Origin: Acidobacteriota bacterium
GTDB taxonomy: Bacteria > Acidobacteriota > Terriglobia > UBA7540
Direction of reading: 5' to 3'
Length of the DNA: 64,000 nt
Assembly (NCBI GenBank): GCA_021838785.1
Contig: JAKCCV010000019.1
Span: 1-64,000 of the forward strand
The position numbers and the translations under genes were made by a program. This document shows positions 5,811 to 47,143 of this stretch, in pieces. Under the pieces are notes generated by a model. It did no database searches, was not told the DNA's origin, and saw only the letters and a program-made list of their open reading frames with translations. Position 1 is the first letter of the stretch. The number at the start of each line of letters is the position of its first letter.

Positions 5811-5892
5811 CAGGTTCCTGGGCGACGGCGAGGGCTCCCCAACGCCTCAAAGCCACGGCAGAACGCCCGCCCACGTGATAAAATGTCGGGCG

Positions 5893-8800
5893 ATGGATTC
5901 CGCGAACTTCGTTCACCTGCACCTTCATACGGATTACAGTTTGCTGGATGGCGCCTGTGCCATTTCTCGGCTGATGGAGCGGGCTGCCGAGCTCAAAATG
6001 CCGGCCGTCGCCCTGACCGATCACGGCAACCTGTTTGGGGCCGTGAAATTCCATAAAGCAGCCATTCAGCATGGCTTGAAACCCATCATTGGTTGCGAGG
6101 TGTACGTCGCCGGCACGAACCGCTTTGACCGCTCCCCCGAATCGGAGCGTCCCTATCACCTCGTTCTCCTTTGCGAAAACGATCGGGGCTATCGCAATCT
6201 TATCAAGCTGGCTTCGGCCGCCTATCTGGAAGGCTACTATTACCGGCCGCGAATTGATAAGGATCTCCTGGCACGTCATTCCGAGGGGTTGATCGCTCTT
6301 TCCGCCTGCCTGCGAGGCGAAGTCGCCAATGCGCTCCTCCTGGAGCGGTACGACGCCGCCCGTCAGGCTGCGTACGACCTGCAAGATATCTTCCACAAGG
6401 GTAATTTCTATCTTGAGATCCAAAACCAGGGATTGCCCGAAGAGCAAAAAATCAACCCGCAGCTCGTCCAGCTTTCGCGGGAGACGGGCATTCCTTTGGT
6501 GGCCACCAACGATTGCCATTATTTGACCCAAGCCGATGCGCGAGCCCAGGAAGTACTGGTGTGCATTCAAACCGGCAAGACGCTCTCCGACACCAACCGC
6601 ATGAGGTTTCCTACCGATCAGTTCTATTTCAAATCTTTCGAAGAGATGCGGGCAGTTTTTGCGGAGATTCAGGAGGCGATAGGCCGGACGGTTGAAATTG
6701 CCGAGCGGTGCAACGTTCATCTGGACAAAGAGCAACATGTTTTCCCTCACTTTGAGGTGCCGGCAGGAGAAACGCTGGACAGCTATTTTGAAAAGGTCGC
6801 CCGCCAAGGATTTGAGCAGCGTCGCCAACGGTTGGGGCAACAGCAAGCCGAAGGCAGGCTGCGTCATCCTCTGAAGGCCTACGAGGAACGGCTGGAGCAG
6901 GAAATCAGCCTGATTCAGCGGATGCGCTTCGCGGGCTACTTCTTGATTGTCTGGGATTTTATCCGTTTTGCCCGGGAGGCCGGCATTCCGGTGGGACCGG
7001 GGCGTGGCTCGGCAGCAGGCAGTTTGGTTTCCTACGCGCTCGGCATCACGGACATTGACCCGCTCCAGCACGGCTTGTTGTTTGAGCGGTTCCTCAATCC
7101 GGAACGCATTAGCTTCCCGGACATTGACATTGATTTCTGCATGCGCCGTCGGAACGAAGTGATTGACTATGTGACCGACAAATATGGACGGGAGAACGTC
7201 AGCCAAATTATCACCTTCGGCACGATGGGCGCGAAGGCCGTCGTGCGCGACGCCGGCCGAGTGCTGGGCATGCCTTTCGCCGAGGTGGACCGAATCGCCA
7301 AACTAATTCCGAACACCTTGAACATCACGCTCGAAGAGGCCCTTCAACAGACGCCGGAACTTCGGCAGTTGCAACAAGGCGATCCTCGCATCGCTGATTT
7401 GCTTCAGATTTCCATGCAATTGGAAGGGCTGGCGCGCCACGCCTCCACGCACGCCGCCGGGGTGGTTATTTCACCCCAGCCTCTTCAGGAAATCGTTCCC
7501 CTGTTCAAGAGCAATAAGAACGAAATTACGACCCAGTATGCGATGGACGATCTGGAGAAAATTGGCCTGCTCAAGATGGACTTTTTGGGCCTCACCACCT
7601 TAACGGTCTTAGACGATGCCCTGCGCTTAATCCATACGACGCGGGGAGAGAAGCTGGAATTGGACGCTATCCCCACAGACGATGCGGCGACTTATGAGCT
7701 GCTCGGTAAAGGGCTGACGGCCGGCATCTTTCAATTTGAGAGTCGCGGCATGACGGATATTCTGCGCCGCGCCCACCCCAGTCGGCTGAGCGACTTGACG
7801 GCGTTGAACGCGCTCTATCGCCCCGGCCCCATCCAAGGTGGGATGATTGATGACTTTGTCGCCCGCAAAAGCGGCAAAAAGCAGGTTGCCTATGACCTGC
7901 CCGAACTCCAAGAAATCTTGGAAGAGACTTACGGCGTCATTGTTTATCAGGAGCAAGTGATGCAGATCGCCGCCCGCGTGGCGGGTTTCAGCCTCGGCGA
8001 AGCGGATGTGTTGCGCCGCGCCATGGGCAAAAAGAAACCCGAGGAAATGGCCGCCATGCGCGAAAAGTTCTTGGCTGGGGCGAAGCAGCGCCGCGTGCCC
8101 CCGAAAAAGGCGGAAAAACTTTTTGACCTGATGGCCCAATTTGCCGGCTACGGATTTAACAAATCGCATTCGGCCGCCTATGCCCTGATTGCTTATCAGA
8201 CGGCCTTTTTGAAGGCGCATTATCCGGTGGAATTTATGGCCGCGTTGCTCACCTCGGAAATCGGCAACACCGAAAAGCTGACGTTTTATCTGAGCGAGTG
8301 CCGGGATATGGGCATCGGCATTTTGCCCCCGGATGCCAACTCCTCCGACATGGACTTTACCCCCCAGGGCAACCAGATACGCTTCGGGTTAATGGCCATC
8401 AAGAATGCGGGGGAAGCCGCCATTTGTTCGGTGCTGGAGGCAAGAAAGACGCTCGGGCGGTTCGACAACTTCTATCAGTTCTGCGAGCATGTGGATTTGC
8501 GCCTGCTGAACAAGCGGGTGATGGAGAGTTTGATTAAGGCGGGGGCGCTCGATTCGTTGGGGGCGCGGCGCGCTCAAATGATGGCGGCGCTTGATGCGGC
8601 GATGGAGCACGGCGCACGGCGGCAGCGCGAGGCGCAGAGCGGCCAGCATGGGTTATTTATGAATGGCCGCGAGGCCGTCACCGTCCTCCAGCCAGAGTTG
8701 CCGAACGCTCCCGAGCTGTCCGAGGCTGACCGCCTGGCCGGTGAGAAGGAGGTGTTGGGCGTTTATGTGACCGGCCATCCGCTCGATAAGTATCGGAGCC

Positions 8801-9381
8801 AGTTGGCGGCCCTGACGCACTACGATAGTTCGTCCGTCGAAGAGTTGTCCCATGACGCGCCGGTAACCCTAGGTGGGATTCTGAGCAGCCTTCGTATCCG
8901 ACCGAGTCGCAAGGGTGACTTGTGGGCCGCCGGCGTGCTCGAAGATTGGCGAGGCACGGTGGAATTGTTGGTGTTTCCCCAGGCGTACCAACAACTGAAG
9001 GACGTCCTCAAGCCGGATGTGGCCGTGTTCGTTAAAGGTCGGGTTCGGCTGGAGGAGAATTCTCGCCCCAAAGTCGTGGTGAGCGAAGCTAAACTTCTGG
9101 AGCAGGCGGTGAATGGAAACGGCAAAGGTCTTCGCTTGCGGGTGAATTTGGATCACGCGGATGGAGGCTTGATGGACCGCCTGGAAGCCCTGCTGCGCGA
9201 ATGCCCCGGTCAGGATCGTGTCATCTTTGAAGTGGAGCGGACGGGTAGCTTTCGCGCTCTCTTGCAGCCGTGGCCGAAGTTGGGCGTCCGTGACGGAGAA
9301 GAGTTCCGAGCGCGGGCGGCAGCGTTGCTCGGCGAAGACGCCGTCATTCAGGAGACGGAGAAGCCGATGGTTGCCAAGTGA
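5893..9381 (+). CDS. dnaE: DNA polymerase III subunit alpha
   Basis: Replicative polymerase of about 1162 residues. An N-terminal PHP domain opens with HLHTDYSLLDGA and continues with LTDHGNLFGA. The family C palm carries the catalytic carboxylates in PDIDIDF (Asp410, 412, 414). Fingers, a helix-hairpin-helix region (KNAGEAA) and a C-terminal OB-fold (about 980-1060) follow. I chose the ATG at 5893 rather than the in-frame codon at 5875, because the preceding six residues are not conserved and the PHP domain starts at once after this Met. It is the standard DnaE1 layout, not the shorter DnaE2. accA follows about 40 bases downstream, an arrangement also seen in other bacteria, so the two may share a transcript. 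Confidence 0.96.
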   Translation: MDSANFVHLHLHTDYSLLDGACAISRLMERAAELKMPAVALTDHGNLFGAVKFHKAAIQHGLKPIIGCEVYVAGTNRFDRSPESERPYHLVLLCENDRGYRNLIKLASAAYLEGYYYRPRIDKDLLARHSEGLIALSACLRGEVANALLLERYDAARQAAYDLQDIFHKGNFYLEIQNQGLPEEQKINPQLVQLSRETGIPLVATNDCHYLTQADARAQEVLVCIQTGKTLSDTNRMRFPTDQFYFKSFEEMRAVFAEIQEAIGRTVEIAERCNVHLDKEQHVFPHFEVPAGETLDSYFEKVARQGFEQRRQRLGQQQAEGRLRHPLKAYEERLEQEISLIQRMRFAGYFLIVWDFIRFAREAGIPVGPGRGSAAGSLVSYALGITDIDPLQHGLLFERFLNPERISFPDIDIDFCMRRRNEVIDYVTDKYGRENVSQIITFGTMGAKAVVRDAGRVLGMPFAEVDRIAKLIPNTLNITLEEALQQTPELRQLQQGDPRIADLLQISMQLEGLARHASTHAAGVVISPQPLQEIVPLFKSNKNEITTQYAMDDLEKIGLLKMDFLGLTTLTVLDDALRLIHTTRGEKLELDAIPTDDAATYELLGKGLTAGIFQFESRGMTDILRRAHPSRLSDLTALNALYRPGPIQGGMIDDFVARKSGKKQVAYDLPELQEILEETYGVIVYQEQVMQIAARVAGFSLGEADVLRRAMGKKKPEEMAAMREKFLAGAKQRRVPPKKAEKLFDLMAQFAGYGFNKSHSAAYALIAYQTAFLKAHYPVEFMAALLTSEIGNTEKLTFYLSECRDMGIGILPPDANSSDMDFTPQGNQIRFGLMAIKNAGEAAICSVLEARKTLGRFDNFYQFCEHVDLRLLNKRVMESLIKAGALDSLGARRAQMMAALDAAMEHGARRQREAQSGQHGLFMNGREAVTVLQPELPNAPELSEADRLAGEKEVLGVYVTGHPLDKYRSQLAALTHYDSSSVEELSHDAPVTLGGILSSLRIRPSRKGDLWAAGVLEDWRGTVELLVFPQAYQQLKDVLKPDVAVFVKGRVRLEENSRPKVVVSEAKLLEQAVNGNGKGLRLRVNLDHADGGLMDRLEALLRECPGQDRVIFEVERTGSFRALLQPWPKLGVRDGEEFRARAAALLGEDAVIQETEKPMVAK

Positions 9382-43547: not shown

Positions 43548-43908
43548 GTTCGCGCTCCCTTCGAGTTAGAGTGAATCGCCCGGCTTCAGCTTTTGCCGTC
43601 GGCCAAGGTGCGTGGGCGCTGAAGCGTAGGCTCGTGGGCCGTCTGCCGAAAGCCGACTTATACTAACCTCCCGCTGGTTATAGTGCAATGGCGGAGGCAA
43701 CGGTTCTCTATGTTTCGACAGGCGGCGGATAGAATGGCGGCCGTCGCCGGAACGACGAGCTCTCCTGTTCCCTGAAAAGTTGCAGGGCGGGTTTGGAAGC
43801 GCTTGACTTTCGCTTTTTTTTCGCCTATCCTTCTTACCTGGGGCTGGAAAAGCGGCCGCGTGATGAAAATTGCGGCGCCACGGCCAAGAAGGTGCCCGGA
43901 GGTCCACC
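43548..43908. other. Divergent regulatory region upstream of the PolB operon
   Basis: About 360 bases between the DUF4870 gene (-) and the RadA-like gene (+). It holds the promoter at 43803 and, 32 bases before its -35, an imperfectly spaced inverted pair GGAAC/GTTCC at 43749-43753 and 43767-43771. No coding frame is supported. Confidence 0.5.
43803..43831 (+). promoter_or_regulatory. Sigma-70-type promoter of the RadA-like/PolB operon
   Basis: TTGACT at 43803-43808 and TATCCT at 43826-43831 with exactly 17 bases between them. The predicted transcript start is near 43838, about 70 bases before the first gene. It is one of the best promoter matches in the window. Confidence 0.6.
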
Positions 43909-44592
43909 ATGTTCTCCAACGAGTCACAAGCGATGCCCAGGCCGATGCGTGCAGGGTCTGGTGGGTGCGCGGTGTCGGCGACGGCTCCTTCTGCTCCGGT
44001 GCGCCGCGCCCCGTGGACGTTGCCGACGCAGGGTCTGGCGGTTTTCCACGGGGCGTGCGACACGGCGCGGCTGAGCCACTATTTTTTGCCGCGACTGATT
44101 TTGTCGGGCCAGCGCGTGCTGGTACTCGACGGAGCCAACTCAGCCGACCCGCGATTGATGGCGCGGCTGGCGCGCGAGCGCGGCATGACGTTTGATGCTT
44201 TCAGTCGTCAAATCCAAATTGCGCGCGCCTTCACCTGCTTTCAGCTCACCGAGCTCACGGCGCGGCTGCCGCGCTGGGTGGCGGAGTTTCCGGCGAAGGT
44301 CTTAATCGTCACGGCGCTGCCCGAGCTTTACTTCGACGAAGACGTACGAGATGGCGATGCGCACGCGGCGTTCGAGCAAGCGCTCCGCCATCTGCGACGC
44401 TGGGCGACGGAGCAAGGCGCGGTGGCCGTCTTTTCTTCCGCTGTGAACTTTGCGCCTTCGGCGGGGCGGCGGAGCTTTTTCCCGCGCCTGGCCGCGGCGG
44501 CGAACGAAGCCTGGGAATTCCAGGTGGATGAAAACGGCCGCATGACGCCGGGGCCGCTGCCGCGGGGGAGCTTTCCATCCCTTGCCCAATAA
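43909..44592 (+). CDS. Rad51/RadA-like protein without ATPase motifs, PolB operon gene 1
   Basis: From the ATG at 43909 (GGAGG upstream) the product has 227 residues. The order of segments follows a RecA/Rad51 core. The P-loop position reads VFHGACDTARLSHY (45-58) and lacks GxxxxGK(T/S). The second strand is RVLVLDGANSADP (69-81). QIQIARAFTCFQL (101-113) resembles the Rad51/RadA ARAxN-x-DHQ segment. The Walker B strand is VLIVTALPELYF (131-142), with Thr where the Asp should be. ATP hydrolysis is therefore unlikely. By position before a specialised polymerase it recalls ImuA in the ImuA-ImuB-DnaE2 system. A structural or loading role for the polymerase is inference. Confidence 0.7.
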   Translation: MFSNESQAMPRPMRAGSGGCAVSATAPSAPVRRAPWTLPTQGLAVFHGACDTARLSHYFLPRLILSGQRVLVLDGANSADPRLMARLARERGMTFDAFSRQIQIARAFTCFQLTELTARLPRWVAEFPAKVLIVTALPELYFDEDVRDGDAHAAFEQALRHLRRWATEQGAVAVFSSAVNFAPSAGRRSFFPRLAAAANEAWEFQVDENGRMTPGPLPRGSFPSLAQ

Positions 44593-44598
44593 AATGCC

Positions 44599-44952
44599 AT
44601 GGGCCGAACCCTCGCCACATTTCGCGACTTGATTGAGCAAGAGATGCAGAACTGGGAGCGTGTCTTTGGGCGGGCGCTGCGGCGGGAAGAGCGCGTGCAC
44701 TTTGAGGCCATGTTCCAACGGGTGCGCCTCTATGTGCAGGCCTGTACGCATCAATCCTCCGTGCACGCCATGGACGCCATCAACGTGGCCATCGGCTTGG
44801 ACCACGAAATTCGGCTGCGCGCGATTGAAGCGCGTTTAGGAATCAACCTTGCGACTCAGTGGATGGATTCTCGACCTTTACCCGTCCGCGGAGGGGATGA
44901 CGCTGTGGCTGATCCCGCAGAACGGCAATCCCCAACGCCGTCGGCTGATTGA
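44599..44952 (+). CDS. Small helical protein, PolB operon gene 2, unknown function
   Basis: A 117-residue frame starting 6 bases after the RadA-like gene. Residues 5-85 look like a compact helical domain (TFRDLIEQEMQNWERVFGRA, then HFEAMFQRVRLYVQACTHQ) rich in Glu, Arg, Met and aromatic residues. The last 35 or so residues are encoded within the first 104 bases of the polymerase gene in another frame and look like non-specific coding. No family is recognised. There is no strong ribosome binding site, so translation probably depends on coupling to the gene upstream. It may be a small subunit of the polymerase complex. Confidence 0.6.
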   Translation: MGRTLATFRDLIEQEMQNWERVFGRALRREERVHFEAMFQRVRLYVQACTHQSSVHAMDAINVAIGLDHEIRLRAIEARLGINLATQWMDSRPLPVRGGDDAVADPAERQSPTPSAD

Positions 44953-47143
44953 TCCCTCCTTTCACCCGCGCTTCTACGCGCGCGGTCCGCAGGCGGCGCT
45001 GGAGCGGCTGGCGGCGGAATTGGCACGGCGCGCTCCGGTAAGGTGCGCCTTCACCGAGAAGCAGGACCTCTGGGAAGGCCCGGTCACGGTGCTGGAAGTT
45101 ACGGTACATTGTCCCGCGCAGTTCGCGGCGCTCGCGCGCCTGGCTCGCCGCGCCCCAAGTTCGCTTCGCCTCTATAACACCGACCTGATGCTGGCAGCGG
45201 TCTATAGTTGGGAGAAAAAGGTTTTCCCACTGGCTCAGGTGGAAGCGGAGGTGGAAGGAGACCGCCTCCGCGCCCTGGCTGGCCGCGACGATCCTTGGCG
45301 CGTAGATTACGAATTGCCGCCGCTCGGCGTGATGCAGGCGCGCCTGGAGGGTCTGGACCGCGTGGACCCGCAGCACGGGCGACGCGGGGCGCTCGAAGTC
45401 GCGCATGAGGGCGAGTGGCAAATTTTGGATGACGCCGATGAGCCGGTGGCGGCGGGCTTTGAGCGCCTCTTGCGCACTTGGGACCCCGACCTCATCGTCA
45501 CCGAATGGGGCGATGCCACGCTGCTGCCCGGACTGATGCGGCAGGCGCGGCGGTGCGGGTTCGAGCTTTCGCTCAACCGCGACCACGCTCCGGCCGAACG
45601 CCATCGCGCCCGCAGCTACACGAGCTACGGCCGCGTGCTCTTCAAGGCCAGCGCTACCACGCTGCGGGGGCGCCTGCACGTGGATATTCGCAATTCCTTC
45701 ATCGCCCATGCGTGCGAGCTGGACGGCCTATGGGAGCTGGCGCGCGTCACCAAGCTGCCCGTGCAATATTGCGCCCGCACCAGCACGGGCACCGGCATTT
45801 CCTATCTCCAGATGGAACTGGCCTGGCGTGATGGACTGCTGATTCCGGAGCAGAAGGCCGAGCCGGAATCACCCAAGCACCCGGACGAATTGCTACGAGC
45901 CGATCGCGGCGGGCTGGTGTTTCCGCCGCGCTTGGGATTTTTCTCGAATGTGGCCGAACTCGATTTTGTGAGCGAGTTTCCCAGCATCATGGCGCGCTTC
46001 AACGTCTCTCCAGAAACGGTCAACTGCCGCTGCTGTCCGGACGCTCCGCGCGTGCCGGAGCTGGGTTATCGCATCTGTCAGAAGCGCCGTGGCCTGACCG
46101 GCCGCGTGGTGGAGCGACTGATTGCCAAGCGCGGAGAATACAAGCGGCGCATGATCCTGGCGCCGGACGGCTCGAACTCGGCTTCGCCCGGGCGGTTCCT
46201 TTCGCCCGTTGAGTGGAACTCCTACGCGCAGCGGCGTTCGGCCCTCAAGTGGCTGCTGGTCTGCTGTTTCGGTTACACCGGCTACAAGAACGCGCGCTTT
46301 GGCAAGATTGAGGCGCATGAGGCCATCAACGCCCTGGCGCGAGAAAAACTGCTTGCGGCCAAGGAAGCCGCGGAGGCGCGCGGCTACCGCGTGCTGCACG
46401 CGCTGGTAGATTCGCTCTACGTCGAGCGCGAAGGTGCGACGCGCGCGGACTACGAATGCCTGGCGAGGGAGATCGAGCGGCTCACCGGTTTGCCGCTGGC
46501 TCTGGAGGCGGTTTACCGTTACGTGATTTTTCTGCCCTCGAAACAGAACCCGGAAATTCCCGTGCCCAACCGCTTCTTCGCCGTCGCGGAAGACGGCACG
46601 CTGAAGGTTCGCGGCCTGGAGTGCCGCCGGCATGACACGCCGCCGCTGGTAGCGCGAATGCAGGAAAAGGTTTTGGAGATTCTGGCGGAGGCGCGCGACC
46701 AGGAGACTTATGCGCAGAAGCTTGAAGAAGCGCGGCGAGTGCTCGAACGGTATCTTGAGCGCATCGAAGCCGGCAGCGTGCCGGCGGAGGAGTTGGTCAT
46801 CAGCAAGCGGCTTTCACGCCTGCCCTCGAACTACCGCCAAGCCAGCCAGGTGGCCATCGCGGCTCAGCAACTCGACCGCTCCGGCGTGCGCCTGCGAGCC
46901 GGCGAGACCATCGAATACATTCTCACTTGTGCTGGCGCCAAGCTGGCTGACGATCGCGTGCGCGCCTACACGTTGTGGGAAGGCTGGCGAGGCTATGATG
47001 CCGCCGCTTACCGTGCCGCGCTGCTCGACGCTTTTCAGCCGTTCGAGTTTTTCGCGCCAACGCCGGACCACGGGGCGAGCGCCGCACCGCACCCTCAGAC
47101 CTGCACCGCGACGCTGGTTTCCGTGCGGATGACCGGACGATAG
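44849..47143 (+). CDS. Family B DNA polymerase, PolB2/Dpo2-like, exonuclease-degraded and with altered motif C
   Basis: A 764-residue family B polymerase starting at TTG 44849 with AGGA seven bases upstream; the N-terminus GWILDLYPSAEG looks native. Motif A is intact (DFVSEFPSI, Asp372). Motif B is KWLLVCCFGYTGY (Lys467, Gly475, Tyr476). Motif C is HALVDS at 517-522, so the usual DTD is L519-V520-D521, with only the second Asp kept. The KKRY thumb motif is reduced to NRFF, but GLECRRHD (589-596) is present. In the exonuclease domain Exo I reads ARLE, Exo II keeps one Asp (EWGD), and Exo III is not recognisable. This fits the archaeal PolB2/Dpo2 group and its few bacterial relatives. Residual, non-proofreading synthesis (translesion) or a structural role are both possible. 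Confidence 0.85.
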   Translation: MRLSGWILDLYPSAEGMTLWLIPQNGNPQRRRLIDPSFHPRFYARGPQAALERLAAELARRAPVRCAFTEKQDLWEGPVTVLEVTVHCPAQFAALARLARRAPSSLRLYNTDLMLAAVYSWEKKVFPLAQVEAEVEGDRLRALAGRDDPWRVDYELPPLGVMQARLEGLDRVDPQHGRRGALEVAHEGEWQILDDADEPVAAGFERLLRTWDPDLIVTEWGDATLLPGLMRQARRCGFELSLNRDHAPAERHRARSYTSYGRVLFKASATTLRGRLHVDIRNSFIAHACELDGLWELARVTKLPVQYCARTSTGTGISYLQMELAWRDGLLIPEQKAEPESPKHPDELLRADRGGLVFPPRLGFFSNVAELDFVSEFPSIMARFNVSPETVNCRCCPDAPRVPELGYRICQKRRGLTGRVVERLIAKRGEYKRRMILAPDGSNSASPGRFLSPVEWNSYAQRRSALKWLLVCCFGYTGYKNARFGKIEAHEAINALAREKLLAAKEAAEARGYRVLHALVDSLYVEREGATRADYECLAREIERLTGLPLALEAVYRYVIFLPSKQNPEIPVPNRFFAVAEDGTLKVRGLECRRHDTPPLVARMQEKVLEILAEARDQETYAQKLEEARRVLERYLERIEAGSVPAEELVISKRLSRLPSNYRQASQVAIAAQQLDRSGVRLRAGETIEYILTCAGAKLADDRVRAYTLWEGWRGYDAAAYRAALLDAFQPFEFFAPTPDHGASAAPHPQTCTATLVSVRMTGR

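Follow-up and report, generated by a model that had tools for sequence, protein, structure and literature searches.

An iRadA-PPB2-PolB2 operon of an acidobacterium carries a putative LexA box and is proposed as an SOS-controlled alternative to ImuA-ImuB-DnaE2

The operon encoding iRadA, PPB2, and the family B polymerase PolB2 was reported in 2014 by Makarova and co-workers (PMC4104785), and its products were modeled in 2025 by Timinskas and co-workers as a PolB2 mutasome, a heteropentamer of PolB2, iRadA, and three PPB2 subunits (PMC11791011). According to both papers, bacterial operons have the order iRadA-PPB2-PolB2 and lexA is often a neighbor, and the later one describes the archaeal PolB2 operon as damage induced and archaeal PolB2, as in Sulfolobus, as an active enzyme with an extender role. 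Thus, the idea of a translesion mutasome made of PolB2, iRadA, and a small helical protein, bacteria included and with lexA nearby, is not new; the system has an archaeal origin and has received little study. We analyzed a 64,000-nucleotide stretch of DNA (hereafter, the window) from an Acidobacteriota bacterium (class Terriglobia; GenBank assembly GCA_021838785.1, contig JAKCCV010000019.1, positions 1 to 64,000), which contains a bacterial member of this published system. On the basis of gene content, gene order, residues, the iRadA fold, box conservation, a common regulon, and mutual avoidance with ImuB, we consider it very likely that this is a complete PolB2 mutasome operon controlled by the SOS response (LexA), in which LexA would bind the promoter and the three proteins would form a mutagenic lesion bypass complex taking the place of ImuA-ImuB-DnaE2. 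A first-pass annotation, made from the letters alone, had proposed a bacterial translesion complex built on PolB2; this reading is supported here, although it was already in print and bypass activity at this locus is predicted.

As in the archaeal Dpo2 operon and the bacterial PolB2 mutasome, the window operon comprises the three protein families in the bacterial order, with the MGRT arm and the D(K/R) motif, and its polymerase likewise lacks the first Asp of motif C and appears inactive as an exonuclease. It differs in a promoter with a putative LexA box common to lexA and imuA, in the overlap of PPB2 and PolB2, in the lack of a detectable sliding-clamp motif at the ends of iRadA and PolB2, and in a host without a detected Y-family polymerase. 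ImuA-ImuB-DnaE2 is also an SOS-type cassette of three genes, the first encoding a RecA-family protein, and has the same box in the window's family, whereas its polymerase belongs to the C family and its hub is a dead Y-family protein. Similarly, Pol V (UmuD'2C-RecA) combines a polymerase, a RecA-family partner, and a small subunit whose N-terminal arm lies near the active site (PMC11791011), but it has a Y-family polymerase, an active RecA, and a processed UmuD, and the small subunits differ.

The first-pass annotation had described three genes behind a good promoter, the first pair 6 bases apart and the second pair overlapping, and this layout was confirmed: all three open reading frames are present on the (+) strand of the window, spanning 43909-47143. 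The features are as follows.

43803-43831, + strand: sigma-70-like promoter, with the -35 box TTGACT at 43803-43808 (its first base being window position 43803), a 17-base spacer, and the -10 box TATCCT at 43826-43831
43809-43827, + strand: putative LexA/SOS operator, a direct repeat TTCGC-N6-TTCGC with an 11-base phase that fills the promoter spacer
43898-43902, + strand: Shine-Dalgarno sequence ggagg of iRadA, read from the sequence
43909-44592, + strand: iRadA, inactive RadA/Rad51 homologue of 227 amino acids, from predicted fold and profile match
44599-44952, + strand: PPB2, PolB2 partner of 117 amino acids with the N terminus MGRT, from alignment; it fits the family description in PMC11791011
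44838-44841, + strand: Shine-Dalgarno sequence agga of PolB2, within the PPB2 frame; TTG-starting relatives have a similar aggaatcaacc-TTG context
44849-47143, + strand: PolB2, family B polymerase of 764 amino acids with a TTG start, from Pfam DNA_pol_B and alignments

The best start of iRadA is the ATG at 43909, which the ggagg sequence precedes, and a gap of 6 bases separates the end of its stop codon (44592) from PPB2. PPB2 and PolB2 overlap by 104 bases (44849-44952) that are read in two frames, as the tail of the former and the head of the latter. An overlap of 68 to 104 bases was found in 20 of 23 operons (absent in genomes G042, G052, and G059; the window genome is G000), and the nearest start codon of PolB2 in these 23 operons was TTG in 15 and ATG in 8. 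We infer that a weak TTG start holding PolB2 below the amount of PPB2 would fit the published 1:3 stoichiometry.

The third product matches Pfam DNA_pol_B at 94.8 bits and has the residue pattern of PolB2, as the first-pass annotation had supposed. In alignment with P. abyssi Pol, the motif A Asp (ELDF; D372, codon 45962-45964) and the motif B Lys (K467) are kept, and motif C reads LVD (residues 519 to 521) in place of DTD, L519 replacing the first Asp and D521 (codon 46409-46411) being the second. D372, K467, and D521 were invariant, and the first Asp of motif C was always replaced, in 35 of 35 aligned PolB2 proteins (the window protein and 34 others, leaving out that of G176, whose gene lies across two contigs, and the four that are truncated or remnants). 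A D(K/R) motif preceding the palm (D352-R353 in the window) was likewise present in all 35, as ADRG, IDKG, SDRG, or TDRG. At Exo I and Exo II, in the register of the P. abyssi alignment, Arg occupies the positions of both Exo I acids in the window protein and Leu that of the Exo II Asp; the profile consensus has weak e and r at Exo I, that is, a weak acidic residue at one position. The replaced Asp and the lost exonuclease residues would also suit a complex that serves as a dead scaffold or a regulator, for instance in replication restart, and not as a catalytic bypass polymerase; PMC4104785 had proposed that PolB2 is inactivated and may act in the control of replication. However, invariance of the two aspartates and the lysine is not expected from decay, and the PolB2 of Sulfolobus, with Ile in place of the first Asp, is nevertheless active (PMC11791011). 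We regard the dead-scaffold explanation as quite improbable and treat PolB2 as a candidate catalytic polymerase.

The first gene had been described as encoding a RadA-like protein without Walker motifs. Its AlphaFold2 (AF2) model (predicted local distance difference test [pLDDT], 79.4; predicted template modeling score, 0.74; residues ahead of 32 mostly with a pLDDT of <50) has a RecA/RadA fold, the best structural match being Rad51/RadA 1pzn_B (Z, 20.1; root mean square deviation, 2.4; 178 residues over the span 32-220). Besides, the iRadA profile finds RadA by sequence (E, 3.4e-8), and Pfam Rad51 gives a match below threshold (16.9 bits; cut-off, 22). The protein is without the N-terminal helical domain and has a single lysine. 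A pattern scan for GxxxxGK[ST] bore out the absence of Walker A, whereas the absence of Walker B was judged by eye only, VLIVTAL replacing the Asp-ending strand. As modeled, iRadA clearly has a RadA fold without a P-loop. The outcome that the first-pass annotation had named as refuting its idea, a first gene without a RecA fold in structure prediction, thus did not occur. Neither iRadA nor PPB2 had a match in NCBIfam; the N-terminal MGRT of PPB2 was invariant in 22 of 22 aligned sequences.

The 61 near relatives yielded PolB2 matches in 25 genomes, iRadA matches in 23, and PPB2 matches in 21; in G032 and G036, PolB2 is represented by nothing more than a short C-terminal piece. Of 250 genomes drawn from the class, 39 had PolB2 (called at E ≤ 1e-20). 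In 35 of these, iRadA and PPB2 lay upstream of PolB2 on the same strand, in the same order and within about 3 kb, giving 36 operons, and the order iRadA-PPB2-PolB2 was found in 36 of 36 operons with enough contig; five operons (G042, G052, G059, G122, and G140) had up to about 1.6 kb between genes. As for the four remaining genomes, the contig ends inside polB2 in G020 and G056, the gene of G184 appears to be cut likewise (this region was not fetched), and G155 has an 83-residue remnant with a stop. Thus, PolB2 is accompanied by the RadA-like gene wherever enough contig is available, and the other refuting outcome named in the first-pass annotation, a polymerase mostly without this gene, did not occur either. 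Irregular copies of iRadA were split over two contigs (G022), interrupted by an in-frame stop (G134), or cut by the contig start (G137), and iRadA without PolB2 was seen in G024 (on a 57-kb contig) and G035 (near a contig end). G044 has, in addition, a second, diverged iRadA-like gene (L069, 2527-3341) with an exact box and no PPB2 or PolB2 match within the 6 kb fetched.

The TTCGC-N6-TTCGC box, with at most 2 mismatches, preceded iRadA at 37 of 38 loci, compared with 0.01 expected from mononucleotide shuffles. These 38 are the 39 iRadA loci minus one whose contig begins inside the gene; solitary iRadA copies (G024 and G044) and the copy at a contig end (G035) are counted among them. The shuffle figure is to be preferred to a control with the reversed pattern, which performs poorly at single loci because it resembles the true site in part (5 of 38 at ≤2 mismatches). 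The whole promoter block was almost invariant in 23 of the first 24 loci compared, even where PolB2 identity fell to 42%. Across the 61 genomes, the box core TTCGCTTTTTNTTCGCNTA (at most 1 mismatch) occurred at 130 sites, in 48 genomes, versus 3 for the reversed pattern; on these counts and those upstream of iRadA, we rejected a chance resemblance to promoters. Clustering of the neighbors of 126 distinct box sites (loci L071-L190 among them) placed lexA downstream of 27, iRadA downstream of 23 (a share that is not an unbiased estimate, because loci fetched for PolB2 are included), and DinB-family genes downstream of 9; on the other side were radical SAM genes (21 sites), DEAD-box helicase genes (8), ImuA-like genes (5), and DUF72 genes (5), and the other sites formed small clusters or were left unclustered. 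One box-preceded gene was taken by eye for recA. The lexA of the window genome (contig C9), on which Pfam LexA_DNA_bind and Peptidase_S24 were confirmed (the other gene classes being identified by one representative each), has a box with 1 mismatch to TTCGCTTTTTNTTCGCNTA and 0 to the looser TTGNNNTTCGCNTTTNNTTCGNNTA. The clear box sites of this genome are those of lexA and the PolB2 operon; a scan with TTGNNNTTCGCNTTTNNTTCGNNTA gave 3 hits, as did the reversed control, and we do not claim the third, C17:88355, as an SOS site.

The box probably represents the LexA operator of the group, with TTCGC as its half-site, judging from its sequence and place. Alternatively, it might be the site of another damage regulator or an odd core-promoter spacer, with the operon regulated otherwise; its position inside the promoter spacer and its direct repeat, unlike the classical LexA palindromes, would accord with this. 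Nevertheless, lexA is the gene class most often preceded by the box, which also lies ahead of imuA-like, radical SAM, and helicase genes and the by-eye recA. A LexA box of Acidobacterium capsulatum, GTTC-N7-GTTC, was reportedly described by Mazon et al. in 2006. Furthermore, the LexA box of alphaproteobacteria is a direct repeat, GTTC-N7-GTTC (PMC3323433), and because our box has the same direct-repeat architecture with an 11-base phase and precedes lexA, it is most likely a LexA operator. We consider regulation by something other than LexA improbable.

The first-pass annotation had likened the cassette to ImuA-ImuB-DnaE2, and this parallel, with LexA as the presumed regulator, extends further than was supposed, to a common box in the window's family and a large mutual exclusion in the class. 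In the window's family, the Imu cassette regions had the box (≤2 mismatches) in 8 of 8 ImuB-positive genomes; outside it, in 3 of 8 regions fetched (G045, G046, and G049). ImuB, called by profile at E ≤ 1e-45, was found in 136 of the 250 class genomes, and together with PolB2 in only 3, versus 21.2 expected (Fisher P, 3.7e-11). Since genomes are not independent, counts were also made by genus and family: 4 genera had both, versus 12.7 expected (P, 1.4e-5), and in a closed set, the 37 genomes of the window's family (G000-G036), PolB2 was present in 18, ImuB in 8, and both in none (P, 0.002; by genus, 1 of 18 genera seen had both [P, 0.013]).

It is conceivable that this avoidance reflects shared ancestry only, the lineages differing and the genes never competing. 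The PolB2 tree tracks families fairly closely (5 label changes; minimum possible, 4), and among the matches listed, families f5 and f10 occur for ImuB but not for PolB2. On the other hand, genera g1, g41, and g46 each contain genomes of either state, with no genome there holding both systems. Two ImuB-positive genomes also look like they hold leftovers of replacement: G024 has retained an iRadA gene with the box but neither PPB2 nor PolB2, and G155 the PolB2 stub. We consider ancestry as the sole cause rather unlikely, although appreciably less so than either of the alternatives discussed above, and prefer mutual replacement. In the same tree, PolB2 of G044 (family f9) is nested within f1, a likely transfer, and that of G025 (f1) is on a long branch outside the remaining f1 rows.

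Profile searches of the window genome (98.45% complete, so that a missed gene is possible) detected no IMS domain or Y-family polymerase, no ImuB, and no DnaE2 above cut-off. The sole DnaE match to the DnaE2 model, at window positions 5875-9381, scored 723.9 bits against a cut-off of 939 and is thus probably of the replicative type. With neither ImuB nor DnaE2 found, we rejected membership of the window operon in ImuA-ImuB-DnaE2. PolB2 may be the only dedicated bypass polymerase of this genome. Among the 61 near relatives, IMS-domain matches were found in 52; those without were the window genome, G001, G002, G020, G021, G028, G032, G033, and G035, several of which are incomplete. Most matches were strong and DinB-like, and a second, weaker match marks ImuB. 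We fetched 18 regions around second matches and read the order ImuA-ImuB-DnaE2 in several, the third gene of the cassette in G013 scoring 1,095.3 bits with the DnaE2 model. In G041 and G056, the second match was also strong (in G041 Pol IV-like, next to a DnaE that scores below the DnaE2 cut-off); the ImuB profile detected neither of them, and they were not counted as ImuB.

In our model, LexA bound to TTCGC-N6-TTCGC within the promoter would block transcription in undamaged cells, and RecA on single-stranded DNA would trigger LexA self-cleavage, so that iRadA, PPB2, and PolB2 would be produced together. PolB2, with two active-site aspartates retained and proofreading lost, would presumably elongate distorted primer ends across lesions; PPB2, trimeric in the published models, would point its MGRT arm to the active site; and iRadA, with a RadA fold and no ATPase, would dock on PolB2 where a filament neighbor would be. 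In Acidobacteriota, this machine would be an alternative to the ImuA-ImuB-DnaE2 of sister lineages. We lean slightly toward the broader view that the archaeal-type PolB2 complex of Acidobacteriota became the SOS mutasome, with a LexA box as for Imu, repeated mutual replacement with it, and the role of only dedicated translesion polymerase in the window genome and in G001, its nearest relative.

Several points weigh against this interpretation. LexA binding is proposed from the place of the box before lexA; the operon of G006 is the sole locus of the 38 without a recognizable box, and 5 of the 8 Imu regions outside the window's family (G039, G043, G050, G053, and G054) are also without it. Three genomes hold both systems, two of them (G137 and G193) with an intact-looking PolB2, and in family f6 (PolB2, 13; ImuB, 18; both, 3) the significance of the avoidance depends on the number of genomes lacking both being small (P, 2e-5 at N = 28 and 0.05 at N = 40), family totals within the 250-genome draw being known as at least the numbers seen. 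IMS matches, mostly of DinB type, were present in 20 of the 25 PolB2-matching near relatives, and G003, of the same genus as the window genome, has IMS matches and ImuB; the notion of an only bypass polymerase is therefore limited to the window genome and G001 (90% complete) and does not extend to the genus or group. The structure prediction of PolB2 had a mean pLDDT of 46.2, and the model was not used. A simple pattern scan, which weak motifs could escape, found no sliding-clamp motif in the last 60 residues of the window iRadA or PolB2; within the PolB2 mutasome family, only part of the members have such a motif at the C terminus of either protein. Finally, we met no experiment on any bacterial PolB2 operon in the literature searched.

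The role of bacterial PolB2 has so far been argued from gene neighborhood, models, and archaeal data. A box common to lexA and imuA, combined with near-exclusion with ImuB, would suggest a direct and testable role, that of an interchangeable SOS mutasome. If so, a family B enzyme would underlie damage-induced mutation in the window genome and G001, and hosts without Y-family polymerases and DnaE2 would allow a background-free measurement of the mutagenic contribution of PolB2. Within the literature searched, which left most subscription papers out of reach, we found neither PolB2/ImuB exclusion nor a LexA box for an acidobacterial PolB2 operon described; the accessible text of PMC12926913 contains neither "mutually exclusive" nor "Acidobacteri."

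Some further observations concern variant operons and the wider set of box-bearing genes. G193 has two PolB2 operons (L216 and L217) with the box in both (2 and 1 mismatches), plus ImuB. In the distant relatives G052 and G059 (L063 and L064), iRadA ends in QLRLF (Q next in one), a canonical-looking beta-clamp motif. The radical SAM, DEAD-box helicase, DinB-family, and DUF72 genes next to the box, counted above, are candidates for an SOS regulon of the group; the radical SAM gene, we presume, resembles spore photoproduct lyase. DUF72 has been reported as a polB2 neighbor (PMC11791011). In G025 (L057), a DUF72-cluster gene diverges from the box of iRadA itself, so that one operator may control both genes.

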